A stretch of DNA of 21,686 nt from a virus. The first letter of the stretch is position 1; every line of letters starts with the position of its first letter. The notes under the pieces are model-generated. The model saw only the letters and a program-made list of their open reading frames with translations, made no database searches and was not told the DNA's origin. The stretch lies in IMG/VR virus record IMGVR_UViG_3300046000_003593, positions 1 through 21,686 of that record; one strand, given 5' to 3'. Positions 366 to 18,461 of this stretch are shown one piece after another. The position numbers were made by a program, and so were the translations under genes.

Positions 366-411
366 AGTTTTTCCTTTAGTTGGGGTACTTGCATTGCTTT
401 CCCCCGGTTAA

Positions 412-606: not shown

Positions 607-618
607 TTCAAGTCCTAT

Positions 619-870
619 TCAAAAGGGGATGTCATCATCAGAGATTGGGGCGCTCTTGCGGGTTGGCTCAGAGGACTGTCTAAAGGTTTCGCCTTTCTTT
701 TTGATTTGCAAAGACATCCACTTTCCGTCCTTGCCATCTTTGATCCAAGCGTTTAACCAGAATTCAACACCATCTACGTTGATAGACCCGTTGTAGTCAC
801 TGTGGGTTTCGTTCTCCTTCTTTTTGTTTTTAGAAAGAGAACCCCTGTTTGTTTTGTCAAATTCAGCCAC
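619..870 (-). CDS. Single-stranded-DNA-binding-like protein with SSB tip
   Basis: 83 aa. The core (about 6-60) has the TNRGSLSKN and YNGSINVDGVEFWLNAWIK segments of a short family of phage proteins thought to have an OB-type fold. A linker with S/T/P residues leads to the extreme C-terminus SDDDIPF. This matches the acidic tip by which bacterial SSB recruits partner proteins. The start is a GTG directly after the TAA of the ERF gene. It is preferred because AAAGGA lies 7 nt upstream. Pairing with an ERF annealing protein in one operon fits phage recombination or replication. OB-fold assignment is from pattern, not from an alignment. Confidence 0.8.
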   Translation of the reverse strand: MAEFDKTNRGSLSKNKKKENETHSDYNGSINVDGVEFWLNAWIKDGKDGKWMSLQIKKKGETFRQSSEPTRKSAPISDDDIPF

Positions 871-1488
871 TTATTTTCCTTTCGCAAGTTCAGCTTGTTT
901 TTTAATTGCAGACCGAGATTTACTATCCAACAATCCCCAAAGGAATGTCTTCTCTTCAGAGTCGGTTATCTCTGAAACTTCTTCATAGGCACCCATGACA
1001 TCGTCTTGGTCCATGTGGTCCTTCACTGATATGGCAACGTCACGCAACAAACTTTCACGCTTGGGGTCGATCAGTACGCCTTCTGTGGGCCTGTGCTTTG
1101 GTGCGGCAGTCTGTCCTGTGGTTGCGTCCAGTGCGTCATGCTCAACGATTTCAAGAGCGGCAACCCACAAATAGCGGCGCAGGTATGTCTGTACTGCCCC
1201 AAGGTTTTGGACCTCATGGCACCCCTTTAAAGCGGCGCTAGACATAGGGCTTGTGATGACAATGCGGTCTTCTGGTTTGTCAGTGTTCACAATCGTCATG
1301 CTGGCTTCTTCTTTGCCAAAACTGATGATAGAAGTAAGACCCACACGATCAAAGATCTCCATTGCCGGGATGATAAAGTCGCCTAACTCAAAGTAGTAGT
1401 AGTTAGCAAATTTGTTATGGCCTGACTTTTTAAGTGCAGACCCATGAAACTGCTGTCGAGCTATGTTCAATCGTTTATATACATTCAT
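871..1488 (-). CDS. erf: ERF-family single-strand annealing protein
   Basis: 205 aa, in the size range of P22 Erf (204 aa). The N-terminal domain carries HNKFANYYYFELGDFI (24-39) and the signature segment GAVQTYLRRYLWVAALEI (98-115), typical of ERF proteins that anneal complementary single strands during recombination and genome circularisation. The C-terminal part is less conserved and probably contacts partners. It directly precedes the SSB-like gene and overlaps the next upstream gene by ATGA (1485-1488). The combination is a classic phage recombination pair. No exonuclease gene is visible beside it. Confidence 0.9.
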   Translation of the reverse strand: MNVYKRLNIARQQFHGSALKKSGHNKFANYYYFELGDFIIPAMEIFDRVGLTSIISFGKEEASMTIVNTDKPEDRIVITSPMSSAALKGCHEVQNLGAVQTYLRRYLWVAALEIVEHDALDATTGQTAAPKHRPTEGVLIDPKRESLLRDVAISVKDHMDQDDVMGAYEEVSEITDSEEKTFLWGLLDSKSRSAIKKQAELAKGK

Positions 1489-1685
1489 TTCTTTTCTCCA
1501 AAAGCCAATTCATATTCTGAGGTGATGATGTAATGTTGATCCTCTTCATATAGATCACCAAAACGTCCAAAGTGGTTTTCTTTACAGCATGACCACTTGT
1601 CATCTTTAGGTTCTAGGCAGTAGTAACAGTACTCTGTATCTGACTGCATAAACTCTGCTTTCAGTTGTTGGTAAAACTCTTTCAC
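1485..1685 (-). CDS. Small cysteine-containing protein of unknown function
   Basis: 66 aa. Start codon is GTG at 1685, forming a GTGA overlap with the TGA of the upstream gene; a GGAG lies about 10 nt upstream. Residues 20-34 contain CYYC and CC (YCYYCLEPKDDKWSCC), a possible small metal-binding knuckle. The remainder is acidic and aromatic. I do not recognise a family. Coupling to the ERF gene suggests co-expression with recombination functions. Confidence 0.65.
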   Translation of the reverse strand: MKEFYQQLKAEFMQSDTEYCYYCLEPKDDKWSCCKENHFGRFGDLYEEDQHYIITSEYELAFGEKK

Positions 1686-1891
1686 AGTGTTGACTCCAAA
1701 TATTGAATAGATGAATCCCGCATCAAATCCATGATGTCTTGTCCATCGGGTGTTTGTACGCCTTTTAAAACATACTCATCAAGCATGTCTCGCTCATACA
1801 CAAGCATTAATTGAACCTCTTTGTATTCAACACACTTTGTGTACTGTTGCATTGCCATGTTGTAGTGAACAACATCTTTTTCCCAGTTCAT
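1682..1891 (-). CDS. Hypothetical small protein
   Basis: 69 aa, methionine-rich and probably helical (MNWEKDVVHYNMAMQQY...). No recognised motif. It starts within an ATGA overlap with the upstream gene (1888-1891) and ends in a GTGA overlap with the downstream one. This tight coupling is the main reason to call it real. Function unknown. Confidence 0.65.
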   Translation of the reverse strand: MNWEKDVVHYNMAMQQYTKCVEYKEVQLMLVYERDMLDEYVLKGVQTPDGQDIMDLMRDSSIQYLESTL

Positions 1892-2088
1892 CGTTTACCC
1901 CCAACTACTTTTAATGGCTTGATTTCTTTTTCGGGAGGGGGTGGCTCCATAGTGAGACTGGGGGGCACCCAACCATATCGCTTCCAAGTGGCCTGCACAT
2001 CAGCACCGCTTGTCCACGTATAGTTTTTATGCTCAACATGCACCCAGGGACGGGTGATCTTTGTGCCTTTAGGTGGGGTCCAGTTCAT
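1888..2088 (-). CDS. Hypothetical small protein, proline/tryptophan-rich
   Basis: 66 aa with four Trp residues and a PPPPEKEIKP stretch followed by a basic VVGGKR end. No family is recognised. ATGA overlaps at both ends (1888-1891 and 2085-2088) place it firmly in the operon. Confidence 0.6.
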   Translation of the reverse strand: MNWTPPKGTKITRPWVHVEHKNYTWTSGADVQATWKRYGWVPPSLTMEPPPPEKEIKPLKVVGGKR

Positions 2089-2291
2089 ATCTTCTCCTCA
2101 AATGGGTCGCCCCAGGTTGAATGCACACCAGTATGCATATTGAGATACCCATCATCTTGCTTGATGATGACTTGGCCTTCATCAGATATCCATGTGTCGC
2201 CTGACTTGACATAGGTATGCTCAGTCGAGGCTTTGAATGAATCACTGGTGAAGTAAGTGATGCCAGAGAACAGGTTAGTAAAGATGCTCAT
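2085..2291 (-). CDS. Hypothetical small protein
   Basis: 68 aa. The start at 2291 (MSIFTNLFSG) is chosen over an in-frame start at 2336 because it makes an ATGA overlap with the TGA of the upstream gene, as elsewhere in the operon. Sequence is polar, with DTWISDEGQVIIKQDDGYLNMHTG suggesting beta strands. No function recognised. Confidence 0.6.
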   Translation of the reverse strand: MSIFTNLFSGITYFTSDSFKASTEHTYVKSGDTWISDEGQVIIKQDDGYLNMHTGVHSTWGDPFEEKI

Positions 2292-2614
2292 AGCTTCTCC
2301 GCAATCATGTTTGCAAGGGTTTCTTGGACCTGCCAAGCCGCCTGGGTAGCGTTACCCTGCAACAGCATCACAAGAGCCTTGGTGAGGTCTTCTTGATGGC
2401 TTAAAGCACTATGGCTGTCACCCAGCAACTCAAAGAAGAATTGATCTTTGCTGACCTTTTCGTACTTAAGGTCAAACATCCAATCATCTGAATCTTTAAA
2501 CTCTTGAATACATTTCTGGATGTATTCTTCACGCAATATTCTATTTGCGTCTGCTTTGTCGATGCTGGCTTGGTGCTGGTTAAGCAAGCGATCGTAGTGT
2601 TGGTCAATGCTCAT
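2288..2614 (-). CDS. Hypothetical helical protein
   Basis: 108 aa. The start at 2614 (MSIDQHYDRLLNQ) is preferred over an upstream alternative at 2707 because it overlaps the TGA of the preceding gene as ATGA. The composition is charged and helical throughout (QASIDKADANRILREEYIQKC... LAKMI-type C-terminus). No family recognised. Its position in the ERF/SSB operon is the only clue to role. Confidence 0.6.
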   Translation of the reverse strand: MSIDQHYDRLLNQHQASIDKADANRILREEYIQKCIQEFKDSDDWMFDLKYEKVSKDQFFFELLGDSHSALSHQEDLTKALVMLLQGNATQAAWQVQETLANMIAEKL

Positions 2615-2802
2615 TTGACCTCCACTTCTACGCTGTTTGAGTACATGTAAATAATCGCATCCATCTTGCCAACCATCTTTGCAAGAGGTTTTGCTACACG
2701 GTCCCATTCGGCTGAATCTGCTTCAGCGCCACGGTACTTTTGGTAGGCATCCAATGCTTTGTTTACTTCTGCTTGGATCTCAATTAAATCGCTAAGTTTC
2801 AT
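2611..2802 (-). CDS. Hypothetical helical protein, first gene of the left operon
   Basis: 63 aa, helical (LIEIQAEVNKALDAYQKYRG), not recognised. It is the promoter-proximal gene of the minus-strand recombination operon, with an AAAGGAAAA ribosome binding site and an ATG at 2802. The promoter at 2839-2867 lies just upstream, giving a leader of roughly 30 nt. Confidence 0.65.
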   Translation of the reverse strand: MKLSDLIEIQAEVNKALDAYQKYRGAEADSAEWDRVAKPLAKMVGKMDAIIYMYSNSVEVEVK

Positions 2803-2939: not shown

Positions 2940-3113
2940 ATGAACATTCAAGACCTACAAAAGCACACCACCCTGTACAAGGTGGCTTTGCTTCTCAACC
3001 TAACCCCTCCCGCTGTCTACAAATGGAGAAAGAGTGGCATTCCTCCTTTGAGACTTTATCAACTGAAAGAACTGAAACCTGAATGGTTTGAAAGGAATGA
3101 AGATGGAACCTGA
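2940..3113 (+). CDS. Cro-like helix-turn-helix regulator
   Basis: 57 aa. The segment from about 14 to 37 (KVALLLNLTPPAVYKWRKSG) reads as a helix-turn-helix: a small-residue first helix, a turn, then AVYKWRKSG as recognition helix. It is followed by IPPLRLYQLKEL, the typical end of phage Cro/YdaS-type proteins. It likely represses the divergent early promoters. The ATG at 2940 has no visible Shine-Dalgarno and coincides with the predicted transcription start. It is the first gene of the rightward operon. A separate CI-type repressor was not found in this window. Confidence 0.85.
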   Translation: MNIQDLQKHTTLYKVALLLNLTPPAVYKWRKSGIPPLRLYQLKELKPEWFERNEDGT

Positions 3114-3348
3114 AGATGAAGCATTTGAGCAACTGGCTTTGAAGCAAGGTAGCTGGCAACACACCAGTGGATGGCGCAAGAAGCAAATAGCCCACATGGA
3201 TGTGCATTCACACCCGGCTGAGTTTGTCCACCTGCACCGCAATGACACCCTGGAAGAAGTTGCCCGTGAGATAGAGCAGTTTGCTGGCCCTTTTGGCAGA
3301 GACACGGTGCAGTCTTTTGCGGCCTTGGTAAGAGGAATGAAGAAATGA
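3103..3348 (+). CDS. Hypothetical small protein
   Basis: 81 aa, acidic N-terminus (MEPEDEAFEQLALKQG), then a mixed polar body with several His (HMDVHSHPAEFVHLH). The start at 3103 is chosen because AAAGGA lies 6 nt upstream, better than in-frame TTG or ATG codons at 3088 and 3097. It overlaps the regulator gene by 11 nt and the next gene by ATGA. No family recognised. Confidence 0.65.
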   Translation: MEPEDEAFEQLALKQGSWQHTSGWRKKQIAHMDVHSHPAEFVHLHRNDTLEEVAREIEQFAGPFGRDTVQSFAALVRGMKK

Positions 3349-3560
3349 ATGAAATTGCTATTGGAGACATTGTGCAGGTCACACCAGACAAAGAAATGTT
3401 TGGGGCTTGCATGGTCGTGGTGACAGAACTCAAGAGTTTTGGCATTCAAGGGTATGTGCAATCTGCTGGCATACCTGGACAGCAGTACATCCGCTTGAAG
3501 TTTGATGAATATGAGCCTACTGGGGGTAAAGCTGTGTGGGTGGTTGGAGAACAAGCATGA
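3345..3560 (+). CDS. Small beta-rich protein of unknown function
   Basis: 71 aa. The IAIGDIVQVTPDKEMFGACMVVVTELK opening and later QYIRLKFDEYEPTGGKAVW suggest a small SH3-like beta barrel. This type of short protein is common among phage early genes, without a known role. ATGA overlaps at both ends (3345-3348, 3557-3560). Confidence 0.65.
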   Translation: MNEIAIGDIVQVTPDKEMFGACMVVVTELKSFGIQGYVQSAGIPGQQYIRLKFDEYEPTGGKAVWVVGEQA

Positions 3561-3703
3561 CTAAAGAACAAGCCCTGCAAATCATCAAGCTGTTGTCAGC
3601 GGTTGAATCATGGTCATTTGCAGACAATCACCGAATGCCCGACTACCTGTATGAACGAATTGAAGAAGCTATGGCAGTGTTGGAACAAGAGGTTCTGAAA
3701 TGA
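3557..3703 (+). CDS. 48-aa hypothetical protein
   Basis: Begins with MTKEQALQIIKLLSAVESW and continues as an amphipathic helical protein ending LEQEVLK. It is held between two ATGA overlaps (3557-3560 and 3700-3703), so the frame is used continuously from one gene to the next. No family recognised. Confidence 0.65.
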   Translation: MTKEQALQIIKLLSAVESWSFADNHRMPDYLYERIEEAMAVLEQEVLK

Positions 3704-3918
3704 CACAAGAAGCATTCAAAGCGTGGTGGTACAACGAAGGCAGTCAACCACCATTTAAGCACCATGACTGTGAAGAACACACTATGCGTATGTGTGAGAT
3801 TGCGTGGGCAAATGGTGCTTTTAAAGAGCGTGAGGCGTGTGCAAAGATGGTAGACCACATACTTAAAGAAGGTGGTGGCACATGGGGCGATGCCATCAGA
3901 GCAAAGGGACAAGCATGA
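3700..3918 (+). CDS. Hypothetical small protein with AWWYN motif
   Basis: 72 aa. The form MTQEAFKAWWYNEGS..., then AWANGAFKEREACAKMVDHIL, is a layout seen in many short phage proteins of unknown role. The FKEREACAKM segment is particularly common in such proteins. ATGA overlaps at both ends support the call. Confidence 0.7.
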   Translation: MTQEAFKAWWYNEGSQPPFKHHDCEEHTMRMCEIAWANGAFKEREACAKMVDHILKEGGGTWGDAIRAKGQA

Positions 3919-3989
3919 CAAGCTATTGCGTGTACTGCAAACGCCCTGTTTTTACTATATTGACCAAGTGTAGGAGTTGCGGAAAATGA
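3915..3989 (+). CDS. 24-aa zinc-knuckle-like miniprotein
   Basis: The frame ATG at 3915 to TGA at 3989 encodes MTSYCVYCKRPVFTILTKCR followed by SCGK. Two CxxC pairs (residues 5/8 and 19/22) spaced for a single zinc ribbon fill almost the whole peptide. ATGA overlaps on both sides (3915-3918, 3986-3989) argue that it is translated. Function unknown; zinc binding is inferred from the cysteines. Confidence 0.55.
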   Translation: MTSYCVYCKRPVFTILTKCRSCGK

Positions 3990-4162
3990 CTGATGAAAAA
4001 CCAGCACCTCGCCCCTGCCAATCATGGTGGGATTGGTATTTGTCACCGCCAGAAAACTGGAATGAAAAATACGGAAACGCGTTTGTCTGGACGGCGCAAG
4101 AAAAAGCATTGATGCAACAACTCAAGCAAAAGAACGGCTACGCCGAGGAGAAGAACACATGA
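3986..4162 (+). CDS. 58-aa hypothetical protein, tryptophan-rich
   Basis: Start at 3986 in an ATGA overlap (an in-frame TTG at 3977 is less likely). CQSWWDWYLSPPENWNEKYG is rich in Trp and Pro. The second half is polar and helical (TAQEKALMQQLKQKNG). It ends in an ATGA overlap with the next gene. No family recognised. Confidence 0.6.
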   Translation: MTDEKPAPRPCQSWWDWYLSPPENWNEKYGNAFVWTAQEKALMQQLKQKNGYAEEKNT

Positions 4163-4311
4163 AGGCACGTAAAGTATTCCACGCACTAATGTCCTCTAAG
4201 AACTATACAGATGCTGATCTAGCCATGACTGGAGACAAGTACACCAATCCCGCTATGCAACAACGCTGGAACTATTTCTTGGCAGGCTGGGAGATGAGGG
4301 GTGTGATGTGA
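4159..4311 (+). CDS. 50-aa hypothetical protein
   Basis: MKARKVFHALMSSKNYTDAD opens a 50-residue polypeptide ending NYFLAGWEMRGVM. The C-terminal RWNYFLAGWEM pattern recurs in small phage proteins with no known function. It starts in an ATGA overlap and ends in a GTGA overlap (4308-4311) with a membrane peptide gene. Confidence 0.6.
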   Translation: MKARKVFHALMSSKNYTDADLAMTGDKYTNPAMQQRWNYFLAGWEMRGVM

Positions 4312-4406
4312 AAGAAGTCTTATCTGTCATTTTGTTTTTGCCCTTGTGGGGCCTTGTTTGCCGGGGACTGTATGAACTTTTTATGTTTGGATGGAATTTA
4401 ATATGA
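4308..4406 (+). CDS. 32-aa single-span membrane peptide (GTG start)
   Basis: GTG at 4308 overlaps the TGA of the previous gene, and the TGA at 4404-4406 overlaps the ATG of the next. After a short basic start the residues VLSVILFLPLWGLVC form a hydrophobic segment, followed by an Arg and further hydrophobic or aromatic residues. A small inner-membrane protein is likely; role unknown. Confidence 0.5.
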   Translation: MKEVLSVILFLPLWGLVCRGLYELFMFGWNLI

Positions 4407-4789
4407 GCTTTGTTTATTTTTGGAATGCATGGCCCAAGTCAGAGCGCAAGGGTGCTAAACGTGCCTGTCTAGCAAAGTGGCAAAAGATGAACCTGGACGC
4501 TGAGATTGATCAGATTTTGCTCCACGTAGAGTGGATGAAGACCACCGATTCATGGAAGAAAAACAATGGTGAATTCATACCTGCGCCCCTTGTTTACATC
4601 AATCAAGCAAGGTGGGACGGTGCTGAAGTGCCAGAAATGACCATAAACCTATCAGTGTCTTTCAAAGATCCTGTATTACAAAAGATGGATGAAGATGCCA
4701 AAAAAGCAGTCCCTATGCCTAAAGCTGTGGCTGAAAAATTAAAAGAATTAAGAAACATGAAAACAAGATCATTTGATCTATATAATTGA
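4403..4789 (+). CDS. Replication initiator C-terminal-like protein
   Basis: 128 aa. Residues 6-12 (FWNAWPK) and 58-73 (FIPAPLVYINQARWDG) match the conserved end of phage O-type/DnaD-like replication proteins, where the pattern is F-Y-P-K ... FIP-P-WLN-RW. The usual N-terminal winged-helix origin-binding part is absent, so this is a stand-alone version. It may recruit or load host helicase at an origin. The start at 4403 keeps the ATGA coupling; ATG at 4391 is possible. It is the last gene before the non-coding region with hairpin and DnaA box, which supports a replication role. Confidence 0.65.
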   Translation: MSFVYFWNAWPKSERKGAKRACLAKWQKMNLDAEIDQILLHVEWMKTTDSWKKNNGEFIPAPLVYINQARWDGAEVPEMTINLSVSFKDPVLQKMDEDAKKAVPMPKAVAEKLKELRNMKTRSFDLYN

Positions 4790-4816
4790 TTCCGTTGCCG
4801 TAGGAAGCGACATATG

Positions 4817-4892
4817 AAGCCGTTTACACATGCTCTCGCCCTTGGTTTTTACTTTAGGGTTCCTACCGAGGGCAGTTGTAAACGGCTTTTTT
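4817..4892 (+). terminator. Long two-stem hairpin with T-run (terminator or structured RNA)
   Basis: A perfect 12-bp outer stem (AAGCCGTTTACA 4817-4828 with TGTAAACGGCTT 4877-4888) ends in six T. Inside it a second stem pairs GCCCTTGG (4838-4845) with CCGAGGGC (4866-4873), one G-T wobble, around a 20-nt loop. The T-run and its place 28 nt after a gene stop suggest an intrinsic terminator. The size and inner stem are more elaborate than a simple terminator. Confidence 0.65.
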
Positions 4893-5038
4893 GTTTCCAC
4901 AGTAGCCCTCAGGGCGGGATAGCAAATGGTCTGCATGGACTGAACCCAAGAAACACCGCACACCGATACACCCCGGATGTTGCGACCAGCGTTAATGTGG
5001 CGACTGGTAAATCACAGGTGCATGGTGGCAACAAGGCC

Positions 5039-5047
5039 TGTGGATAA
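5039..5047 (-). promoter_or_regulatory. Perfect DnaA box
   Basis: TGTGGATAA on the plus strand is TTATCCACA on the minus strand, the consensus DnaA box. It lies in the non-coding region just downstream of the putative replication gene. A single box is weak evidence for an origin. Confidence 0.4.
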
Positions 5048-5169
5048 AGTGAACACATTCGTCAAGCGCACTTGGGGCTTTTTTTGTTTCATACATTTAA
5101 AAGCCTGGAGCGGGAGAGATAGAACCCTTCTATCCACCCTTGGTAGACCTATGTCTAAAGGAAATTGAA

Positions 5170-5382
5170 TTGAATTACTATGATGCCCACAAGATATTGG
5201 ACCGTGTCAAAGATGGACATAAACCACCTGTGGCAGTGATCAACAAAGCATTGGAATTGACTGGAGACTACGATGGAGAGACTTGGCTTTATCCTTGGTG
5301 CGCTGGAACACGACTTGAAGGCGCAACAGAGGGTGGAAATGCATCAGGCGTTAGTCAGGGAGGTAATCCGAATGAGGATTAA
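5170..5382 (+). CDS. Small early protein, TTG start, overlaps next gene
   Basis: 70 aa. The only start with a good ribosome binding site is TTG at 5170, with AAAGGAAA 7 nt upstream. No ATG exists in the first part of the frame. The N-terminal part (NYYDAHKILDRVKDG ... VINKALELTGD) follows a pattern common in short phage proteins (ILDRVRDG ... INKALELTGD) of unknown role. The C-terminal part is Gly/Asn-rich and overlaps the next gene by 110 nt in another frame, which is unusual. It opens the second rightward operon. Confidence 0.55.
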   Translation: MNYYDAHKILDRVKDGHKPPVAVINKALELTGDYDGETWLYPWCAGTRLEGATEGGNASGVSQGGNPNED

Positions 5383-5539
5383 AGACCGGGACAAGGCACA
5401 TCAATGGCTCTACGGGAGGCGTGACGATGGCAAAGAGACAAAAGGATATATGCAACTTCATCCCACTTCAACACTGGATGCAGATGTCATTGACCAATGG
5501 AAAAAAGGAAATCGTGGAAGCCCAGGAGAGTGGAAATGA
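5273..5539 (+). CDS. Hypothetical charged helical protein
   Basis: 88 aa, strongly charged (HDLKAQQRVEMHQALVREVI, then RMRIKDRDKAHQWLYGRRDD). No family recognised. It begins inside the previous gene in a different frame. Its TGA overlaps the ATG of the next gene as ATGA, which is the best support for this frame. Confidence 0.6.
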   Translation: MERLGFILGALEHDLKAQQRVEMHQALVREVIRMRIKDRDKAHQWLYGRRDDGKETKGYMQLHPTSTLDADVIDQWKKGNRGSPGEWK

Positions 5540-5991
5540 AGAAAAGAACCAAACGCAAAGTCTACCCATTGTTCAACCCCATCACCCATGCGATAGCCGG
5601 GGCCTTGATCACTGACAACGAAATCCTAGACAAATTCCGCTTGCTTGAACTCACCTCAATCGAATCATTCCGCACTGGCACAGCAACCAGGGTTGACTGG
5701 GAGAATCTTGCCAGAATGATGAATGTTTGTGAGGTATCTGCTGAGATGGGTATCGGAGCAGAAGCACTTCCATCTTGCCAATGCCTTCAGGAGGTTCTTA
5801 TTGAGGCCCAAGAGCGGTTTAAAAAGATCGGACGATATGGACTGTCAGGCACAGGATTAAAAGCCGCCAAAGACGTTTTTGAGTACATCGACCTTCAGCG
5901 CACCAGCATTGCTAGATCCGAGTTTGAGAAGGTTATCGAAAAGACATACAACCGCATGAAGAGCAAACCCAATTTTATGGAGTTGGCATGA
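5536..5991 (+). CDS. Conserved-looking phage protein of unknown function
   Basis: 151 aa, start at 5536 with AGGAG upstream and ATGA coupling (a farther in-frame ATG at 5497 lacks this). Basic N-terminus KKRTKRKVYPLFNPITHAIAG is followed by a helical body with DWENLARMMNVCEVSAEMGIG. It resembles short proteins found beside RuvC-like genes in phages, but I know of no assigned function. It overlaps the resolvase gene by ATGA. Confidence 0.7.
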   Translation: MKKRTKRKVYPLFNPITHAIAGALITDNEILDKFRLLELTSIESFRTGTATRVDWENLARMMNVCEVSAEMGIGAEALPSCQCLQEVLIEAQERFKKIGRYGLSGTGLKAAKDVFEYIDLQRTSIARSEFEKVIEKTYNRMKSKPNFMELA

Positions 5992-6446
5992 AGATCTTCA
6001 TTGGGATCGATCCAGGGTTCTCAGGGGCCTGGGGAATGATCGATCACCACGGTAAGTACTGGTCATGCGGAGATATGCATCACACTGACAAATACATTGA
6101 AAGCCGTGCGGTGTGGGCTGAGATGTGTCAAGCCCTTGATCGACAGGACTGCGAGGTGGTGGTCGAGTCGGTGCATAGTATGCCGGGGCAGGGCGTACAT
6201 TCCACCTTCAAATTTGGGGTGGCGTTTGGTGGGGCTATAAACCTTGCTCAGAGATTTAATTGCCCCTGGCACCTAGTGACACCCCAGAAATGGAAAAAAG
6301 ACCTCAAGCTGGACTCTGACAAAAACAAAAGTTTGGCCCTGGCAAGAGAGTTATGGCCCCTGGCACCACTGGAGCGCAAGAAGGACAACGGGAGGGCAGA
6401 GGCATTGTTGATGGCAGAGTGGTTGAGGAGGCAAGATGGCATATAG
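5988..6446 (+). CDS. RuvC-like Holliday junction resolvase
   Basis: 152 aa, close to the usual size of phage RuvC-like enzymes. The RNase H-fold acidic residues are visible: D8 in IGIDPG, E60 in CEVVVES, and D133/E138 in KKDNGRAEALLMAEW. The VTPQKWKK segment (98-104) is a hallmark of the phage branch. It should cut four-way junctions during recombination or resolve branched DNA before packaging, dependent on Mg2+. Starts in an ATGA overlap; GGAG upstream. Confidence 0.9.
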   Translation: MKIFIGIDPGFSGAWGMIDHHGKYWSCGDMHHTDKYIESRAVWAEMCQALDRQDCEVVVESVHSMPGQGVHSTFKFGVAFGGAINLAQRFNCPWHLVTPQKWKKDLKLDSDKNKSLALARELWPLAPLERKKDNGRAEALLMAEWLRRQDGI

Positions 6447-6681
6447 CCCACTGCCCGAATGGGTCCGCAAGAGAAAGATCCAAGAAAGATTTGAGGCCAC
6501 TGGCAAGCCTTGGGGTGGCAAGCGCCCAGGTGCTGGAAGGCCTAGAGGGGACAGACCTACTGCTAAAGATGCAGTTTATGTCCGTATCTTGATAAACAGA
6601 ATTCAAGAGATGAACCTGAAAGAGTTGGGAGAAGACAACTTGGACAGGGGTGTGCAAGCGTTAATAGACAAACATGTATGA
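6436..6681 (+). CDS. Basic DNA-binding-like small protein
   Basis: 81 aa. GGKRPGAGRPRGDRPTAKDA (27-46) is a basic Gly/Arg/Pro segment of AT-hook type often seen at the start of phage DNA-associated proteins. The rest (VYVRILINRIQEMNLKELGE) may form a ribbon-helix-helix-like or simple helical unit. GAGGAGG just upstream of 6436 is a strong ribosome binding site. Overlaps RuvC by 11 nt. Function unknown. Confidence 0.65.
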   Translation: MAYSPLPEWVRKRKIQERFEATGKPWGGKRPGAGRPRGDRPTAKDAVYVRILINRIQEMNLKELGEDNLDRGVQALIDKHV

Positions 6682-6980
6682 GTTATACACAACTGGAAAT
6701 TGAAATTTTGCGTTGGGCTGAAGCTCGAAAGATCATCCCCAACAGCAATCCACAGTCACAATTTTTGAAAGCCTGTAGCGAGATGGGCGAGTTGGCTGAT
6801 GCACTTAACAAAAAGGATATGGACGGCATCAAGGACGGCGTGGGCGATGTGCTGGTGTGCTTGATCAACATGTGTGCTTTGTTGGACATCAACTTGACTG
6901 ATTGCTTGCAGTTGGCTTACAACGAGATCAAAGATAGAAAGGGCACTTTGTTGCCCAATGGCGTATTTGTAAAGGAATAA
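6678..6980 (+). CDS. MazG-like nucleotide pyrophosphohydrolase
   Basis: 100 aa. The all-alpha NTP-PPase pattern is present: FLKACSEMGELADAL supplies E35 and E38, and IKDGVGDVLVCLINMCALL supplies D53 and D57. These residues bind Mg2+ in MazG and dUTPase-like relatives. The enzyme likely hydrolyses NTPs to NMP and pyrophosphate, adjusting nucleotide pools or alarmone levels during infection; substrate is not evident. ATGA overlap at 6678. Confidence 0.85.
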   Translation: MSYTQLEIEILRWAEARKIIPNSNPQSQFLKACSEMGELADALNKKDMDGIKDGVGDVLVCLINMCALLDINLTDCLQLAYNEIKDRKGTLLPNGVFVKE

Positions 6981-6981
6981 C

Positions 6982-7308
6982 ATGGAAGTGGACCCAAACA
7001 AGGCGATTAAATACATTCAAGAGAATGCCAAGGACTATGCTGATGCCAAGGGCAGGCGAGTGCATCTAGAGCATTTCTTGAAGACAGTAAAAGCTCAACT
7101 GATGAGCGACTCAGATGAGAAAACGCTAGGTGCCCAAGAGGCCTATGCGTACTCACACGGGCGCTACATTGACCAACTGAGCGCATTGAAGGAAGCTGTT
7201 ATTCAAGAGGAATACTTGAAGTACATGCTAAAAGCCGCTGAATTGCGTATTGAAGTATTCAAAGTGGATGCTTACAACATGAGAGCAGAGATGAGGGCCA
7301 CCACATGA
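6982..7308 (+). CDS. Phage coiled-coil-like protein of unknown function
   Basis: 108 aa, almost entirely helical and charged. The pattern HLEHFLKTVKAQLM ... LGAQEAYAYSH ... LSALKEAVIQEEYLKYMLKAAELRIEVFK is familiar from small phage proteins in recombination/replication clusters, with no established role. AAAGGAATAAC precedes the ATG at 6982. Overlaps the next gene by ATGA. Confidence 0.75.
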   Translation: MEVDPNKAIKYIQENAKDYADAKGRRVHLEHFLKTVKAQLMSDSDEKTLGAQEAYAYSHGRYIDQLSALKEAVIQEEYLKYMLKAAELRIEVFKVDAYNMRAEMRATT

Positions 7309-7676
7309 TGTACCGGGATGTCCACCTGCTCAACCTTGCAAAGGGCCAACAGTGCTTGCTCCAGTGCCATCCACAGTGCATGGATGATGAAGGGTCGACC
7401 ACTGTTGCCGCCCACAGTAACTGGGGTGAGCATGGCAAGGGTAAGTCGATCAAGGCTGAAGACAGCTACAGCGTGTGGGCTTGTTGGAGGTGCCACCAAC
7501 TGCTGGACCAGGGCATGACTGAGATAGGCAAGAAAGAAGTCTGGCTGGAAGGCTATGAAAGACAAAAACAAGAATGGCAAAAGATCGCAGATAATCCCAC
7601 CATAAAGCCCTGGAGAAGAGAAACAGCCAGGAGAGTGTTAGATCATTTAGGAGTGCCATATGGACAAGATCGGTGA
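7305..7676 (+). CDS. DUF1364/YbcO-like putative nuclease
   Basis: 123 aa. The pattern NLAKGQQCLLQCHPQC ... TTVAAHSNWGEHGKGKSIKA ... VWACWRCHQLLDQG matches the DUF1364 family (E. coli DLP12 prophage YbcO). Cys17, Cys21, Cys25, Cys60 and Cys63 with His37, His43 and His64 could form a zinc-stabilised HNH-like site. A role in phage DNA recombination is generally assumed for the family. Start at 7305 in an ATGA overlap. Confidence 0.85.
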   Translation: MMYRDVHLLNLAKGQQCLLQCHPQCMDDEGSTTVAAHSNWGEHGKGKSIKAEDSYSVWACWRCHQLLDQGMTEIGKKEVWLEGYERQKQEWQKIADNPTIKPWRRETARRVLDHLGVPYGQDR

Positions 7677-8019
7677 ATTCTTCCTTACCCTGCTACATGC
7701 CGCCACTAATACACACATTCTCCACCTACAAACCACAAGTTATGCAGAGCATGTGGCCTTGGGTGAGTTTTACACGGAACTCCCAGAGTTGGTAGACACG
7801 GTCATTGAAAGCATCCAAGGGCGATATGGTCAGATCATCCAGTATCCCCAAGATTACTTTGTGCCCAGCAATTCAGGCCTGGAAGAGCTAGAAGCACTGA
7901 AAACCTATGTGGAGCAAAACAGACAATTTCTCCCGCAAGATAGTGAAATCCAAAATGATGTTGATCAAATTTCCTCACTGATTAACAGCACTTTGTACAA
8001 GTTGCGTTTTTTAAAATAA
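7660..8019 (+). CDS. DUF5856-type, Dps/ferritin-like helical protein
   Basis: 119 aa. The N-terminal half LLHAATNTHILHLQTTSYAE, then HVALGEFYTELPELVDTVIE, resembles Dps/ferritin-like four-helix proteins and the phage DUF5856 family. Possible metal ligands are H31, D46 and E50. Whether it binds iron or DNA is not shown. AGGAG lies 7 nt before the ATG at 7660, and the gene overlaps the previous one by 17 nt. It is the last gene of the rightward early block. Confidence 0.7.
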   Translation: MDKIGEFFLTLLHAATNTHILHLQTTSYAEHVALGEFYTELPELVDTVIESIQGRYGQIIQYPQDYFVPSNSGLEELEALKTYVEQNRQFLPQDSEIQNDVDQISSLINSTLYKLRFLK

Positions 8020-8119
8020 TCCCCCTAGAAAAAACAGGTGGGGGGGTCGAAACAAAAGAGGGGCCTAAACTTTTTGAGGGGGGGGTGTCCTAAAAATACA
8101 GGCCAAAACACCATTTTTC

Positions 8120-8218
8120 TCAAAATGACTACTCAAAATCATAAAATTGTCAGAATTATCACTCAAATTGACGATTATGGTCAGAATCAGTACTAAATCT
8201 GGCAACTATGGTCAGAAT
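8120..8218 (+). repeat. Iteron-like direct repeats, 30-31 bp period
   Basis: The core TCARAAT occurs at 8120 (TCAAAAT), 8150, 8181 and 8212 (TCAGAAT), spaced 30, 31 and 31 bp. After the first three cores a 4-nt gap is followed by ACTCAAAA, ACTCAAAT and ACTAAATC. The last two cores are preceded by TATGG. The region is AT-rich. This is the arrangement expected of iterons bound by an initiator, or of repeated operators. Confidence 0.7.
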
Positions 8219-8236
8219 GCCTTGGTTTTCTGCCGA

Positions 8237-8245
8237 TTATCCGCA
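8237..8245 (+). promoter_or_regulatory. DnaA-like box
   Basis: TTATCCGCA differs from the DnaA consensus TTATCCACA at one position. It lies 19 bp after the last iteron-like core. Confidence 0.35.
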
Positions 8246-8260
8246 GAATGATGTGCTTTC

Positions 8261-8540
8261 CCTGGTGTGCAGGCATCAGGGCAGGCAGGCCACCGATCAG
8301 GCCACCACCTGGGCAGATCAGGCCACCGATCAGGCACCAGGGCACACCACCAGGGCAGGCCACACACCACCGATCAGGCCACCCAGGCCACCACACCACC
8401 CAGGCCATCGATCACCACCACACCACCCAGCACCCAGGCCACTGGCCCAGCACAGGCCACCAGGGCACCACCCAGGCCCAGGCACTGCCCATGCACTGCC
8501 ACCACCCAGGCACCACCGATCACCCCATGCCACCAGGGCA
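8261..8540. repeat. 280-bp low-complexity tract without AA, TT or TA
   Basis: The stretch is built from CAGG, CCACC, GGGCA and GATC words; GATCAGGCCACC occurs exactly at 8295, 8316 and 8372, with a variant at 8328. Reading every base, no AA, TT or TA dinucleotide is present. There is no regular period. It has no ribosome binding site or credible protein in any frame. Confidence 0.75.
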
Positions 8541-8572
8541 ATGATGTAAGCACTCACTTCAAAAACACTGCC

Positions 8573-8597
8573 AAAAAAACCCAGGCATAAACCTGGG
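8573..8597 (-). terminator. Intrinsic terminator of the minus-strand island
   Basis: On the minus strand, CCCAGG-TTTATG-CCTGGG (8580-8597) is followed by seven T (8573-8579). It lies 17 nt after the stop of the last island gene. Confidence 0.75.
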
Positions 8598-8613
8598 CAT
8601 TTTTAAAAGTGAT

Positions 8614-8784
8614 TTACAGGGAATCGATCAGGGGCCAAAAATGGTCACACAGCACCACACGGGTCAATCTGGGCCCCTGTAATGGGTGGCAGTAGATCAG
8701 GCCATTGTGCACACTATCCACCACCCACAGGGCTTGATTATCGTCAAGGGTGATCACACCCACATTGTCGGGCTTAATTTGCAT
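8614..8784 (-). CDS. 56-aa hypothetical protein, last gene of the island
   Basis: The ATG at 8784 overlaps the end of the upstream gene (ATGCAAATTAA). The translation MQIKPDNVGVITLDDNQALW continues VVDSVHNGLIYCHPLQGPRL and ends PLIDSL. Alternating hydrophobic residues suggest a small beta protein. No family recognised. A strong terminator follows directly. Confidence 0.65.
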   Translation of the reverse strand: MQIKPDNVGVITLDDNQALWVVDSVHNGLIYCHPLQGPRLTRVVLCDHFWPLIDSL

Positions 8785-8989
8785 ATACAGACCTTTCCAG
8801 GGTTTCGAGATAATCGATCACAGAATCTAGGCATGTGCCCACAGTAGACCCCAGGCCATCGGTGGTTTTGCGCTTTGCTGTCGTTGACAGGGTTTCCCTG
8901 ATATCGTACAGGTCGAATAATGCCTGTGTGACATCGTTAAAATCGATTTCTACAGGCTTTGGATTTTCTAAAAATCTGGTGTCTATCAT
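8774..8989 (-). CDS. 71-aa hypothetical protein
   Basis: Helical, acidic protein (VEIDFNDVTQALFDLYDIRE ... DSVIDYLETLERSVYAN) without a recognised family. It is coupled at both ends: its ATG overlaps the TGA of the 46-aa gene, and its stop overlaps the ATG of the 56-aa gene. Confidence 0.65.
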   Translation of the reverse strand: MIDTRFLENPKPVEIDFNDVTQALFDLYDIRETLSTTAKRKTTDGLGSTVGTCLDSVIDYLETLERSVYAN

Positions 8990-9126
8990 GGTTTATTTTC
9001 CAATATGGTTATCACTTCTTCAATTGCATTTATGCCATCTTGAAAATCACCCTTAGTTAAATCAAAAATGGCAGAATTTAAAATTTCCCAGATCAATTGG
9101 GTGATTTCTGGTGATGTGTTTTTCAT
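8986..9126 (-). CDS. 46-aa hypothetical protein
   Basis: ATG at 9126 preceded by AAAGGG. The translation opens MKNTSPEITQLIWEILNSAI and ends EEVITILENKP. It is helical with no recognised motif, and coupled to the next gene by an overlap (CCATGATAG). Confidence 0.65.
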   Translation of the reverse strand: MKNTSPEITQLIWEILNSAIFDLTKGDFQDGINAIEEVITILENKP

Positions 9127-9137
9127 GGTTGACCCTT

Positions 9138-9812
9138 TCATGCTTGTTTCAAAAAAAAGACTTTATTCGCTTTCGCTTTGCTTGTCCCATGTGCAGGGAA
9201 ACCCACAATTACAGATCGATCACGCACTGCACACAGTTTGCATGTAAAGCATGAAACCCCATCTTTATAGGTGGCAGGGCATGTCACTACTAATCGCCCC
9301 TGTGGGGTGCGTGTGTGTGTAGGGGCATCAATTGGGAGAATGGTCACTACAGGGCCTGCACCAGTGTTTGCCAGGGTATCAGCATGGGCCAGCCCATTTG
9401 CCGACAGGTTAACAGTGAAACCCCAGGCATTTGCATGTCTAACCCAGTGCAAGGCCTGGGCACTGTGTTTGTGTGTGTAGGTGAACCCTTTGCGCCCCTG
9501 GTTTGCTTTGACAATCTGCCCCAGTGCCACAGGGTCGACCGATTCACCCTGCCCAGGCAGATCACCTGCCTGATTCATGCGCCAAATGGTGCCATTTGCA
9601 AGGCCTGCGATGGCATCACAAAAGGCCTGCCATGACATGCCACGATCACCCTGGGTTACTTTGGCCCAATGCAGTGCCAGGGGCCCAGAATCGGCATAAC
9701 ACCCATTCTTTTTAAATGGGCATGACCCAGGGCATGTATCGGCGCTTGATGTGCTAACAGGCATGGGCCCAGTTTTCACATTAGATGACTTCATTGTGAG
9801 ATGGACTAACAT
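9138..9812 (-). CDS. DUF7227-like cysteine-rich phage protein
   Basis: 224 aa, the largest gene of the island. Start at 9812 (ATG) with AAGGA upstream; an in-frame TTG at 9818 is less likely. Cys27, Cys31 and Cys38 form the first cluster (CPGSCPFKKNGCYA) and Cys178, Cys188, Cys191 and Cys194 the second (SCFTCKLC). Between them are WRMNQAGDLPG, GFTYTHKH and GFTVNLSA, and near the end IVGFPAHG. These segments are characteristic of an uncharacterised phage family (DUF7227-like as I recall it; mycobacteriophage-type relatives exist). The conserved cysteines may bind an Fe-S cluster or zinc. No reaction is established. Confidence 0.75.
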   Translation of the reverse strand: MLVHLTMKSSNVKTGPMPVSTSSADTCPGSCPFKKNGCYADSGPLALHWAKVTQGDRGMSWQAFCDAIAGLANGTIWRMNQAGDLPGQGESVDPVALGQIVKANQGRKGFTYTHKHSAQALHWVRHANAWGFTVNLSANGLAHADTLANTGAGPVVTILPIDAPTHTRTPQGRLVVTCPATYKDGVSCFTCKLCAVRDRSVIVGFPAHGTSKAKANKVFFLKQA

Positions 9813-9824
9813 TTTCAATTCCTT

Positions 9825-10121
9825 TTAAATATATTGACAATCTGGGCACCTGGGCCAGCCATCGGTGGTGTCCCATTGATCCCTGGGTGTGGTGCACCCA
9901 CAATCGCAGGTTTTCACCAATGGATCACCCTTTTTGTCGAATTTCACTGATTGATCGGTGGTGTCATAGTAGGTTCTCAGTTTGCATGTATCGCACCACA
10001 TGCCATATGCACCATGTGGGAAACCATAAAAAAGGGGCTTTTCATGCCCTATGGGTGTCTCACAGTGGAAACAATGCACACCACTATGGGTGTCATATCT
10101 AGGGAAAATGCCATTTTGCAT
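9825..10121 (-). CDS. Zinc-ribbon-like protein with several Cys pairs
   Basis: 98 aa. The start at 10121 (MQNGIFPRYDTHSG) is chosen over a far upstream ATG at 10271 because the latter would run through two other genes. Cys/His pairs HCFHCETPIGH, WCDTCK, CDCGC and CPDC could hold two or three zinc ions. Such proteins usually bind nucleic acid or protein partners; the partner is unknown. It directly follows the DUF7227-like gene upstream in transcription order. Confidence 0.7.
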   Translation of the reverse strand: MQNGIFPRYDTHSGVHCFHCETPIGHEKPLFYGFPHGAYGMWCDTCKLRTYYDTTDQSVKFDKKGDPLVKTCDCGCTTPRDQWDTTDGWPRCPDCQYI

Positions 10122-10123
10122 GT

Positions 10124-10207
10124 TTAACCCCAGATCATGAGAATGAGAGACAGGGCACAGGCACACAATGCACAGGCCCAGGTGGTAATGATGTCGGTGT
10201 TGTCCAT
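10124..10207 (-). CDS. 27-aa membrane miniprotein
   Basis: ATG at 10207, TAA at 10124. After MDNTDIITT the residues form one hydrophobic, Cys-containing span (WACALCACALSLILMIWG). The gene fits exactly in the gap between its neighbours: 2 bp after the stop at 10210 and 2 bp before the ATG at 10121. The neat fit is the main support; no clear ribosome binding site of its own. Confidence 0.5.
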   Translation of the reverse strand: MDNTDIITTWACALCACALSLILMIWG

Positions 10208-10209
10208 GG

Positions 10210-10410
10210 TCAGGCCTTTTGTGCTTTATTTGGGAGAATCCCAAGGGTTTCAATGTGTCGAATAGCCACAAAATCTAAGGGCAAAGATGACCCATTGATC
10301 AGTGCGACAGCTTGGTTACATGTAACAGGGTGGCTAAATACTCTGCGAGAATGATCATCATTTTTGATGACCACCACATAATCCTTTTTACCTTGTCCTT
10401 TTGATTTCAT
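10210..10410 (-). CDS. 66-aa hypothetical protein
   Basis: Basic N-terminus (MKSKGQGKKDYVVVIKNDD), then a mixed segment with one Cys and a KAQKA end. The ATG at 10410 has AAAAGGC upstream. No family recognised. It lies 2 bp after the stop of the preceding island gene. Confidence 0.65.
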   Translation of the reverse strand: MKSKGQGKKDYVVVIKNDDHSRRVFSHPVTCNQAVALINGSSLPLDFVAIRHIETLGILPNKAQKA

Positions 10411-10412
10411 GT

Positions 10413-10745
10413 TTATGCCTTTTTTGCTGGTTTCACTGCCAGGGAATCTGCACTGGTGGTGGTGTGTGCTGTCAATAGCTGATGGCTGGGGTCAAAATCA
10501 ATGCCATGCTTGGCACAGAATGCCACTGCGACAGAATGCCAGTCAACCTTGACGGCCCCTGTGGTGGTGTACACCAGGGCATCGGCATGGGTGCCAGGAT
10601 AAGTGCCAGCGCCCAGGGCCTTGATGGCTTTTTTGGCATTGTCTAATCGCTTGGTCAGATCGACATGCTCAGTGTGCAGGTCTAGGTATTCATTGACCAC
10701 TGTGGTGGTGCTGGGTGTGAGAATTACTGTGTTTGTGGTTTCCAT
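10413..10745 (-). CDS. Small phage protein with coiled coil and VDWHSVA motif
   Basis: 110 aa. A helix (NEYLDLHTEHVDLTKRLDNA) is followed by ALGAGTYPGTHADALVYTTT and GAVKVDWHSVAVAF. This helix plus G-x-Y-x-G plus VDWxxVA plan recurs in short phage proteins found near recombination genes, function unknown. AAAGGAAAACACA precedes the ATG at 10745. The C-terminus is Thr/Ala/Lys-rich. Confidence 0.7.
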   Translation of the reverse strand: METTNTVILTPSTTTVVNEYLDLHTEHVDLTKRLDNAKKAIKALGAGTYPGTHADALVYTTTGAVKVDWHSVAVAFCAKHGIDFDPSHQLLTAHTTTSADSLAVKPAKKA

Positions 10746-10775
10746 TGTGTTTTCCTTTGATTGTTGTCTGTGGGT

Positions 10776-11003
10776 TTACTGTTTTTGTGCAATTTTTTCG
10801 CTCAATAATGCTAAATTTTGGATCAATGTACCCGCTCTAACTTTGGTAATAGTTTGCACAGATCCCATCGTTTTAATGGTTTCAAACCAGCCATTAGGCA
10901 GTGGATTAACCACAATTCTCAGATCTGAGTTAATGGGGTTCTTTGCCAATTGCCATATGGTCATATAGGCGCTGGCTAAATTGTGTCGGTCTATTGAATG
11001 CAT
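10776..11003 (-). CDS. 75-aa hypothetical protein, first gene of the island
   Basis: MHSIDRHNLASAYMTIWQLA opens a mixed alpha/beta protein ending LSEKIAQKQ. No family recognised. It has a strong AAAGGAAAGCACC ribosome binding site and is the promoter-proximal gene of the minus-strand island. Confidence 0.65.
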   Translation of the reverse strand: MHSIDRHNLASAYMTIWQLAKNPINSDLRIVVNPLPNGWFETIKTMGSVQTITKVRAGTLIQNLALLSEKIAQKQ

Positions 11004-11025
11004 GGTGCTTTCCTTTGATTGAGTG

Positions 11026-11043
11026 CCAGGGTTTATGCCCTGG
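11026..11043 (-). promoter_or_regulatory. Leader hairpin of the minus-strand island
   Basis: On the minus strand CCAGGG-CATAAA-CCCTGG forms a 6-bp stem with a 6-nt loop, just upstream of the ribosome binding site of the first island gene. No T-run follows, so it is more likely a leader structure or protein-binding site than a terminator. Confidence 0.5.
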
Positions 11044-11076
11044 TGTATCTATTATCGGGTTTATTGTCTCAAAGTA

Positions 11077-11096
11077 TATTAGGACAAACCCTAATA
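11077..11096. promoter_or_regulatory. 20-bp palindrome, candidate operator
   Basis: TATTAGG, six bases, CCTAATA: a perfect 7-6-7 inverted repeat about 75 bp before the first island gene. Size and symmetry fit a dimeric repressor site. The island's promoter should lie here, but no single -35/-10 pair stands out. Confidence 0.45.
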
Positions 11097-11674
11097 AATG
11101 GGGTATTTGATGCATAAATCTTGATTGTTTTTTTTAATCAAGTGTCTAGAAACGATAGGCAGTGCCTAAATTCCCTGGTAGATGGGTGAAAACCGCAAAA
11201 AAAGAAAAGAAAAACACCCAGGGCCTGTGTGTCTCATAGGGAGAGAGACAGTAAGAGAGACTAAAGGCAGGTCAGGTCATGGCCTGATCAGATTACCTGA
11301 AACCCTCGAAATGAGTGGGCCCCCTATTTGCCCATTCTGATTGACCACCAGCCATTAATAAACCGACCGGTCGGTCGGGTAATTCCCTGTGCCTGCCTGG
11401 GTGCCATTGATGGCCTGCCCTGTGGCCCTGCCTGTGCCCTGTGGCCTGCCATCATGCCCCTGATCAATGCACTGCCATGCCAAGCATGTTCCATGTGAAA
11501 CCCCCTGGGGGATATGGAGAGGGGGGTAGGGCTGGAAAGCACTATAAAAGAGGGGGGCCCACTCCCCCATTCCCAAAATTTTTACAAAAACTTTTCCCCC
11601 GTCCCCCTACAAAATTTTTTATCCCAAAAGTTCTTCCCTTCCCTCTCTCTCTTACACCCACAGTCCCTAGGTGC

Positions 11675-15959: not shown

Positions 15960-18113
15960 ATGCTGGACAAACAAAACATCGTTGTGGAAAGCTTGGAAAG
16001 TCCTCCCGGCAATAAAGGTATCGAGTACAAAGTAGCCCACGAAGCTTACTTGAAGATGGTGGATTACTTGAGACTGACTCAAGCTAAAAACACTCTTAAT
16101 CGGATGACAGATTATCACTATCTGAACATCCCAGTATCCAACTCTACAGAACCTATTCGGGGCATTGACTATATTGCCCCAGTCGTTACCCCAGGCATTG
16201 ATTATTCAACCGCTGTCATTACCAAAGGCTTGATGCCTGACGGTGAAGTTAACTTTGAATTCCAGAAGTTTAACGAAGCTGATATTGGCTCAATGCAAGC
16301 CGCTGACATGGTGAAGTATTTTATCAACAGCAAAAACGATGCATACCAAATCATCCGTGACTGGACGCAGGACGCATTGCTCCACAAAAACGGCATTGTG
16401 ATGATCTCCCCCGTGCGGGAACCCATTACCCAGTACAAAGAAGTCGAAGGCACCAAGGACCAGTTGCGCTCTTTTGAGATCATGGCGGCTGACAAAGGAC
16501 TGACTACTAAGCGCCAGCAAATGCGCCGCATCGATGTCAACCTTGAAGGCGTGATGCAAGAGACTATGATGCCTGATGAAATGGGCGCATCGGCAGATAT
16601 GGAAGATGCCATCAAGGCAAATACGATATATCGTGCCAAATATAAGATGACTGGTTATTCAACCAACATCCGCATTAAGCACGTTGCTCAACATTACTTT
16701 GTGTGTAACCCCACAATTCCTGGCATTCAAAACCAAGACTTCTGTGGTTTCTACCAGCCCATGACTATCCATGAGGCCAAACAACAATACCCGTACATTG
16801 AGCTTGAGTCATTTGCTGAACACGCCGCTTATGGCCCTGCCGGGGCTTACCAAGCTGGTGCTTTGGAAAACGATTTGGCACTCCACGCACGGGATTCAAC
16901 CCCTGTTCCTGGTCAAGGCGTAATTGCGTCTGCTGGCGCTGATCGGTTTAGCCGTGTGGTTATGCTGACCACCTGCTGGATGCGCCGAGATGTAGATGGT
17001 GACGGGGAAGAAGAAACAGTAGAGATCTGTTATTCGGGCTCGTACATCCTGTACATCAAGGAAGTTGATTTTATTCCTTTGGCAAGCATGTGCCCCAAAC
17101 CTATTGTGGGCAACTTCTTTGGCTATTCCCAAGGTGAGCGTTTGGTTCCTTTGCAGGAATACAAGACCGCCATCAACCGTGCTGAGATTGCTTTTGCTTT
17201 GCAGGCATCCACCCCACGTATTGGTGTCAACCCAGAGTTTATTGACGCTGAAGAAATACAACGTGGTGTATCTGCCATGTTTATTTTGGACCGCAAATTT
17301 GATCCAGGTAAACACGTATTTGAGTTTGCCCCAATGCAAGGCAACCTTGCCTACATCCAAGACGCTATGGATCGGTTTGATGCCGACAAGATGGCAATGC
17401 TTGGCATGACCAACCCCAACGACACCCTCAATCCAGAGGTGATGAAGGACGGCAACAGCGGGTATAAGTTGCAATTGGCAATGGGTCCCAACCAGTTGAT
17501 CCAAGATGAAATGATTAAGAACTGCGCCATTGGCCTGAAAGACGCAATTTATATTGTCTGGAAGACCATGATTCAGTATTCTGATGACTACAACATCCAG
17601 CAACTGGCAAACGCTTGCATGGAAGGCCAAGATTTTCTTGATGCTAAATCAATGGAAAACTACGACTTCATTGACCGCCGCATGATTAACATCGACATGG
17701 CTTTGGGGTTCCTTTCCGAAGAAAACCGACTGACCCGTCAACAGTTGATCATTCAGGCTCAAACCGCATTTGCCCAGGCGCTCACTCAAATGTCGCCAGA
17801 AGTGCCTGAACTGTTTGCAAAATTACGCCGTCCTTACGAAGACACACTGTATGCATTGGGTGTTAAACACTGCGATGCATACCTGCCAACTTTTGACGAA
17901 GCGGTAAAGATTGTGCAGGCCAAAGCGGCTCAAGGCCCCAGCCCTGAACAGCAAGAAACTCAGTCTAAAGTAGAACTTAATAAGTCTAAAGTAGAAGAAA
18001 CTGGGGCAAAGACTGCTTTGTTGTACAAGCAAGCTGAAGACATTGACATGGATAACATGTATGAGGGAATTGCGGCAAAACGTGGGAAGTTGAGCGCCGT
18101 ACAGATTGATTAA
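15960..18113 (+). CDS. Portal protein, P22-like
   Basis: 717 aa, close to the 725 aa of P22 gp1. The first 100 residues carry NSTEPIRGIDYIAPVVTPGI, then comes a wing-like middle, and a conserved stem/clip part with PKPIVGNFFGYSQGERLVPL followed by EYKTAINRAEIAFALQAS. The C-terminal 100 residues are Gln/Glu-rich helix (QEIQ-type barrel). It should form the dodecameric ring at one capsid vertex, the docking site for TerL and later for tail adaptors. Start codon is one base after the TerL stop. Confidence 0.9.
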   Translation: MLDKQNIVVESLESPPGNKGIEYKVAHEAYLKMVDYLRLTQAKNTLNRMTDYHYLNIPVSNSTEPIRGIDYIAPVVTPGIDYSTAVITKGLMPDGEVNFEFQKFNEADIGSMQAADMVKYFINSKNDAYQIIRDWTQDALLHKNGIVMISPVREPITQYKEVEGTKDQLRSFEIMAADKGLTTKRQQMRRIDVNLEGVMQETMMPDEMGASADMEDAIKANTIYRAKYKMTGYSTNIRIKHVAQHYFVCNPTIPGIQNQDFCGFYQPMTIHEAKQQYPYIELESFAEHAAYGPAGAYQAGALENDLALHARDSTPVPGQGVIASAGADRFSRVVMLTTCWMRRDVDGDGEEETVEICYSGSYILYIKEVDFIPLASMCPKPIVGNFFGYSQGERLVPLQEYKTAINRAEIAFALQASTPRIGVNPEFIDAEEIQRGVSAMFILDRKFDPGKHVFEFAPMQGNLAYIQDAMDRFDADKMAMLGMTNPNDTLNPEVMKDGNSGYKLQLAMGPNQLIQDEMIKNCAIGLKDAIYIVWKTMIQYSDDYNIQQLANACMEGQDFLDAKSMENYDFIDRRMINIDMALGFLSEENRLTRQQLIIQAQTAFAQALTQMSPEVPELFAKLRRPYEDTLYALGVKHCDAYLPTFDEAVKIVQAKAAQGPSPEQQETQSKVELNKSKVEETGAKTALLYKQAEDIDMDNMYEGIAAKRGKLSAVQID

Positions 18114-18122
18114 AGGATGGAA

Positions 18123-18458: not shown

Positions 18459-18461
18459 CAT

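Follow-up and report, generated by a model that had tools for sequence, protein, structure and literature searches.

Rho-dependent terminators are described as having a rut site that is C-rich and G-poor, with regularly spaced cytosines, followed by a hairpin pause within 150 nt (PMC6407284, PMC9160355). A stretch resembling this description lies in an IMG/VR virus record (IMGVR_UViG_3300046000_003593), of which the 21.7 kb analysed here (positions 1 to 21,686, hereafter the window) carry terminase, portal and major head protein genes. The stretch, referred to below as the tract, occupies positions 8259-8540, is A+C-rich on the + strand and contains no AA, TT or TA. It is tentatively read here as an extreme form of an oriented spacer block at a convergent operon junction, serving as a back-up terminator and insulator of the Rho type, a reading whose chances we put somewhat short of even. 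A block occurs at this junction, in the same position, across a family of phages with genomes of about 40 kb, and we infer for it a role in termination or insulation. One described member is MW202484.1 (Podoviridae sp. ctfne034; 41,762 bp, circular record), which has the same layout and a TerL that is 83% identical.

The gene map places leftward early genes, including those for SSB and an Erf-like protein, at 57-2802 (- strand), followed by a rightward early operon at 2940-8019 (+ strand) that encodes a replication-initiation-like protein (4391-4789), a Holliday resolvase, MazG, a YbcO-type nuclease and, as its last gene (7660-8019), a member of the DUF5856 / phrog_858 family (Pfam PF19174, E 6.5e-22; PHROG 858, E 1.6e-28). 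Beyond this gene on the + strand come a family-conserved G-run element, GGTGGGGGGGTC...GAGGGGCCTAAACTTTTTGAGGGGGGGGTGTCC (8038-8090), a weak candidate intrinsic terminator of the rightward operon (8084-8119; GGTGT...ACACC-ATTTTT, -7.2 kcal/mol) and, in the AT-rich half of the island, three 19-nt repeats of the TGACGATTATGGTCAGAAT type at 31-bp spacing (8169-8249). The tract follows. It lies in the gap where the two operons converge, just past the intrinsic terminator of the leftward one (8573-8604, - strand; A7-CCCAGG-CATAAA-CCTGGG-CATTTTT), an element that also reads as a terminator-like or pause hairpin in the + direction. The leftward operon itself (8614-11003, - strand) is a cassette of small genes with a vocabulary in common with the tract and includes a DUF7227 gene at 9138-9812 (Pfam PF23872, E 1.5e-88); rightward late genes come after it. 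A second low-complexity stretch poor in AA, TT and TA lies upstream of the leftward operon at 11380-11470 (+ strand), with a 59-bp run at 11408-11466 and CCTG/TGCC words. The element after the rightward operon has a consensus like GGGGYCTAAAATTTTTGAGGGGGGGGTCC, its reverse strand being rich in C-runs, and elements of this type were also seen in L009, L010, L012, L015, L018, L023, L032, L034, L048, L070, L071, L072 and other loci, with further copies in some cases at other intergenic sites (L020, L022, L027, L056). CpG is depleted over 7250-11500, where observed/expected ratios are mostly 0.16-0.5 as against about 0.7-1.15 in the head-gene region at 18000-20000. CGCG is nearly missing (1 against 30 expected in the window, 2 against 40 in L003 and 0 against 30 in L076) and CCGG and GGCC are likewise low in late genes, a scarcity that is likely to reflect restriction-site avoidance.

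The preliminary description of this DNA had reported that AA, TT and TA are absent from 8261-8540 and that composition alone would not remove all three, and both statements hold. The run in fact extends over 282 bp, the runner-up in the window being 65 bp, and base counts for 8261-8540 are C127, A70, G66 and T17 (over 8259-8540, 45% C, 25% A, 24% G and 6% T). In 5000 letter shuffles of the tract there were on average 22.5 forbidden dinucleotides and never fewer than 10, against none observed, so the composition of the tract is insufficient as an explanation. The absence probably follows instead from the block being T-poor and composed of a small number of recurring words (CAGG, CCACC, GATCA, GGGCA), without the dinucleotides themselves being the target. 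The three exact copies of GATCAGGCCACC and the AT-rich left flank (GC 0.42 across 7751-8250) were likewise borne out. The description of the tract as not periodic largely stands, a clean array being absent, although overlapping weak arrays are picked up by Tandem Repeats Finder (periods of 9-45, scores of at most 113); head-to-tail copies of one unit were rejected on the same grounds. Rfam gave no family match anywhere in the window at gathering thresholds, and a known structured RNA was rejected on that basis.

Open frames of 98-113 aa overlap the tract, which could suggest a protein-coding repeat gene with open + frames. All three + frames are nearly stop-free across the tract, but this is a trivial outcome of the absence of TA, and gene callers can therefore miscall genes there. 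Moreover, indels of 1, 2, 4, 7, 8, 10 and 11 nt separate the tract of the window from that of the relative L076, without regard to reading frame. Conserved coding is thereby refuted, we give the coding explanation almost no credence, and the tract, as judged from these alignments, is a real non-coding spacer.

L076 is a contig from another metagenome in which this tract is found at the corresponding position, its run being 262 bp long, and since the contig was assembled independently the concern raised earlier that the tract might be an assembly artefact of one sample can be set aside. The base counts of its tract are C124, A76, G68 and T15, with one TA. Flanking sequences of the two are about 93% identical over aligned positions (36 substitutions in 517), and within the tract there are 15 substitutions in 264 aligned positions plus the indels of 1-11 nt, which look like gain or loss of units. 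In L003 and L084, TerL and the last rightward gene are 99% identical to those of the window, and yet the tract is missing as such: divergence begins right past the conserved G-run element, and the spacer found there is A+C-rich only to a milder degree (0.60). More distant relatives have, at the same place, tracts made of unrelated words (GGCCACAATGG, GCACGCGCACCC, CAGCGCAGACAC, AGCAAGCCCAGC). A nucleotide search in phages gave no match to the window, a portal search of genome contigs found no host or prophage, and literature searches found no paper on the tract element. Only one of the 82 viral contigs that match an exact tract 16-mer, L239 (the L076 contig), is a recognised relative, the others not having been individually examined; three exact copies of the 16-mer CAGGCCACCGATCAGG lie in viral contig L251 at 6615-6906. 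Several windows poor in AA, TT and TA, and low 6-mer diversity across several gene blocks, were seen in L120, L121 and L122 (~7400-11300), contigs of other phages with the same DUF5856 gene family.

Whilst the letters of the tract turn over fast by indels, its C+A orientation on the strand of the rightward RNA stays, with few G and T. In each relative, the genes of which were called with a simple caller written for this analysis, the leftward terminator was located by A-run plus hairpin and the preceding 200 nt were scored. A+C exceeded 0.5 in all 38 relatives (mean 0.65, background 0.51), the rule having been noticed and counted on these same 38, and the held-out test comprised eight further records only. 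Skew on the same strand was equally regular (C>G in 37/38, A>T in 37/38), and the excess is limited to -200..0, with about 0.5 on either side. When relatives were clustered on tract 8-mers, all 30 clusters of unrelated sequence shared the orientation, although the relatives are not strictly phylogenetically independent. Eleven further loci yielded eight newly scored terminators, every one above 0.5 (one at 0.51), these eight records holding two near-duplicate pairs and so about six independent sequences. The check that had been proposed at the outset, whether composition is kept while sequence changes, thus came out positive. General post-terminator composition was rejected as a cause, since A+C is 0.66 at the junction and 0.50 at other terminators of the same genomes, and so was regional mutation bias or transcription-associated deamination, the 4-fold sites of the flanking genes (A+C 0.40-0.53) being free of the bias. 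The orientation rule is strong but not absolute: weak cases are L289, L193 and L077, and in L163/L281 the tract is inverted, being G+T-rich and A-poor (6%) on the same strand. Within the roughly 420 bp ahead of its terminator, the inverted tract of L163 (7445-7640, reverse strand) contains four exact octamers of the E. coli Chi type, GCTGGTGG. Selection against TA-cutting enzymes, which had been offered as an explanation, is unsupported because the tracts of other relatives retain AA and TA and only the A+C orientation is kept, and a stiff or nucleoid-excluding segment would not account for a strand-specific bias.

On the Rho-type reading, a rightward transcript continuing past the end of its operon would be C-rich, G-poor, U-poor and ribosome-free, and weakly folded given how GC-rich it is; Rho would load on it and free the polymerase at the GC hairpin downstream (8579-8598), before RNA antisense to the leftward operon is made, and rightward polymerases would in this way be kept out of that operon. 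Several measurements are consistent with such a scheme. Cytosines outnumber guanines over more than the 70-80 nt expected of a rut site (127 against 66, and in 37/38 of the family), 78-nt windows reach a maximum C/G of 4.2, and the hairpin at 8579-8598 falls within about 150 nt. Regular spacing of cytosines at 11-13 nt was also found: a rut-like pattern, defined as six C at that spacing with C>G within 78 nt, has 85 matches in the block of the window, or 327 per kb compared with 10.6 per kb in the rest of the genome. Across the family the + sense RNA of the block has a mean folding energy of -21.6 kcal/mol per 120 nt, against -27.0 for background and -35.8 for the complement. The + RNA of the window matches the genome mean in structure although its GC is much higher (dinucleotide-shuffle z -1.26), and it is not unstructured in absolute terms. 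A candidate intrinsic terminator of the rightward operon lies upstream of the block in 28/38 relatives, with A+C scarcely reduced in them (0.64 vs 0.675), which indicates that termination does not fall to the block alone. The junction is the top C-minus-G bubble of the genome in just 11/38. The inverted tract of L163/L281 argues against the Rho-type reading, and the sharing of words between tract and leftward operon is left unexplained by it.

That sharing is extensive. The composition-normalised 4-mer profile of the tract correlates with that of the leftward operon, which occupies the next 2-2.5 kb (mean r 0.34-0.40 over the first 2 kb and 0.26 over the next 500 bp), as against 0.07-0.20 for DNA outside the operon on either side, with sharp borders. 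The match is specific to the operon of the same genome (0.458 vs 0.247 in permuted pairs, sd 0.02), and the shared words extend into the coding DNA of the adjacent 2.4-kb operon. Distinct 6-mers fall below Markov expectation in the leftward operon (mean z -5.0) more than in the rightward one (-1.1), and compared with synonymous-codon shuffles the leftward coding DNA again has too few (mean -7.0 over the 18 genomes of sufficient length for this comparison). In the window the two leftward-operon blocks score -9.6 and -10.3, the other gene blocks -0.3 to -5.7 apart from one at -7.1 that includes a spurious ORF over the tract; low-6-mer blocks occur elsewhere too, 1-4% of blocks in other contigs reaching -7. 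Protein sequence and codon usage were rejected as the cause, as the reuse persists against the synonymous shuffles, and effective codon number explains little of it (3.16 vs 3.37). A foreign donor genome with a matching signature was not found: the closest locus outside the nearest relative of the window is L163, and there the same signature is confined to the locus's own cassette. Each lineage has words of its own, and the islands match the cassette in extent.

One explanation of these data is that the tract is a spacer devoid of function, placed where a fast-exchanging early cassette ends, its composition being a by-product of word reuse that goes unchecked across the cassette, perhaps through slippage, microhomology template switching or single-strand annealing by the Erf-like protein. 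Possible, though on balance doubtful, this explanation fits the unit-like indels against L076, the vocabulary that the tract has in common with the adjacent operon, the operon's shortage of distinct 6-mers, the absence of the tract as such in L003/L084 and the presence of an Erf-like gene in the window. A single strand orientation throughout 30/30 unrelated clusters is not what it predicts, and slippage is local whereas the sharing declines little over about 2 kb, a span for which local slippage is not a sufficient explanation. The original proposal of slippage or recombination filler is partly supported, by the indels, the reused short words and the absence in L003/L084, but plain filler would not lead to the oriented composition. 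It is also conceivable, if unlikely, that the leftward operon and its non-coding end are confined to a limited vocabulary, private to the lineage, by a DNA-level process or by selection, for example host recognition of DNA or annealing-driven recombination, the T-poor tract then being the unconstrained end.

Lambda-type initiators usually have their origin within or near their own gene. An origin of replication, with iterons, an AT-rich stretch and then strand-asymmetric DNA, might be seen in the 19-nt repeats and AT-rich DNA that precede the tract, in the ATAATCGAGATAATCG-type or TAGGGTTTACCC repeats of relatives at the same place and in the presence of a replication-initiation-like gene, but the type of repeat varies among relatives, that gene is 3.5 kb from the tract, and A+C orientation is to our knowledge not an origin feature; an origin here is improbable. 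The window also contains, in a divergent region at 11518-11595, an element (GGGGGGTAGGGCTGGAA...AAAGAGGGGGGCCCACTCCCCCATTCCCAAAATTTTTACAAAAACTTTT) that is very conserved, being present in every relative inspected, and is a candidate promoter or genome-end region. This long, nearly invariant G/C-box element is a better candidate for packaging than the tract, and the ends of contigs of about 40 kb show no clustering at the tract. A packaging or genome-end site had been suggested for the tract, which is non-coding and has a G-run element nearby; no support was found, and we regard it as very improbable.

The junction is of wider interest as a regulatory-type block that alignment would miss, in which position and strand-specific composition are kept and sequence is not (30 unrelated tract sequences). 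If the Rho-type reading is true, phage terminators could be found in bulk by scanning for composition; if the sharing of words with neighbouring genes is the cause, a DNA-level process acts in the same way on the coding and the non-coding DNA of one phage cassette, and such a process can be checked by simple counting across many genomes.

Among known systems, the tract is like cryptically simple, slippage-derived non-coding DNA in being of low complexity, in reusing short motifs in scrambled order and in its unit-like indels and fast turnover, but differs in an orientation conserved across unrelated sequences and in words shared over 2-2.5 kb with coding genes. The exact Chi octamer is absent from the window in either orientation. 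With Chi-type G+T-rich hotspots the tract has in common a G+T-rich complementary strand (GGTGG words), and the tract of L163 holds four exact octamers, whereas the words vary between relatives. From rut sites it differs in being also T-poor and without AA, TT or TA, in its length (about 280 nt against a minimum of 70-80 nt) and in that the family block is often beyond an intrinsic terminator and in one relative inverted, Rho dependence being here a prediction. It is like them in being C-rich and G-poor with regular C over more than 70 nt, in lying downstream of an operon with a hairpin within 150 nt, and perhaps in having a + RNA that is weakly structured for its GC content.
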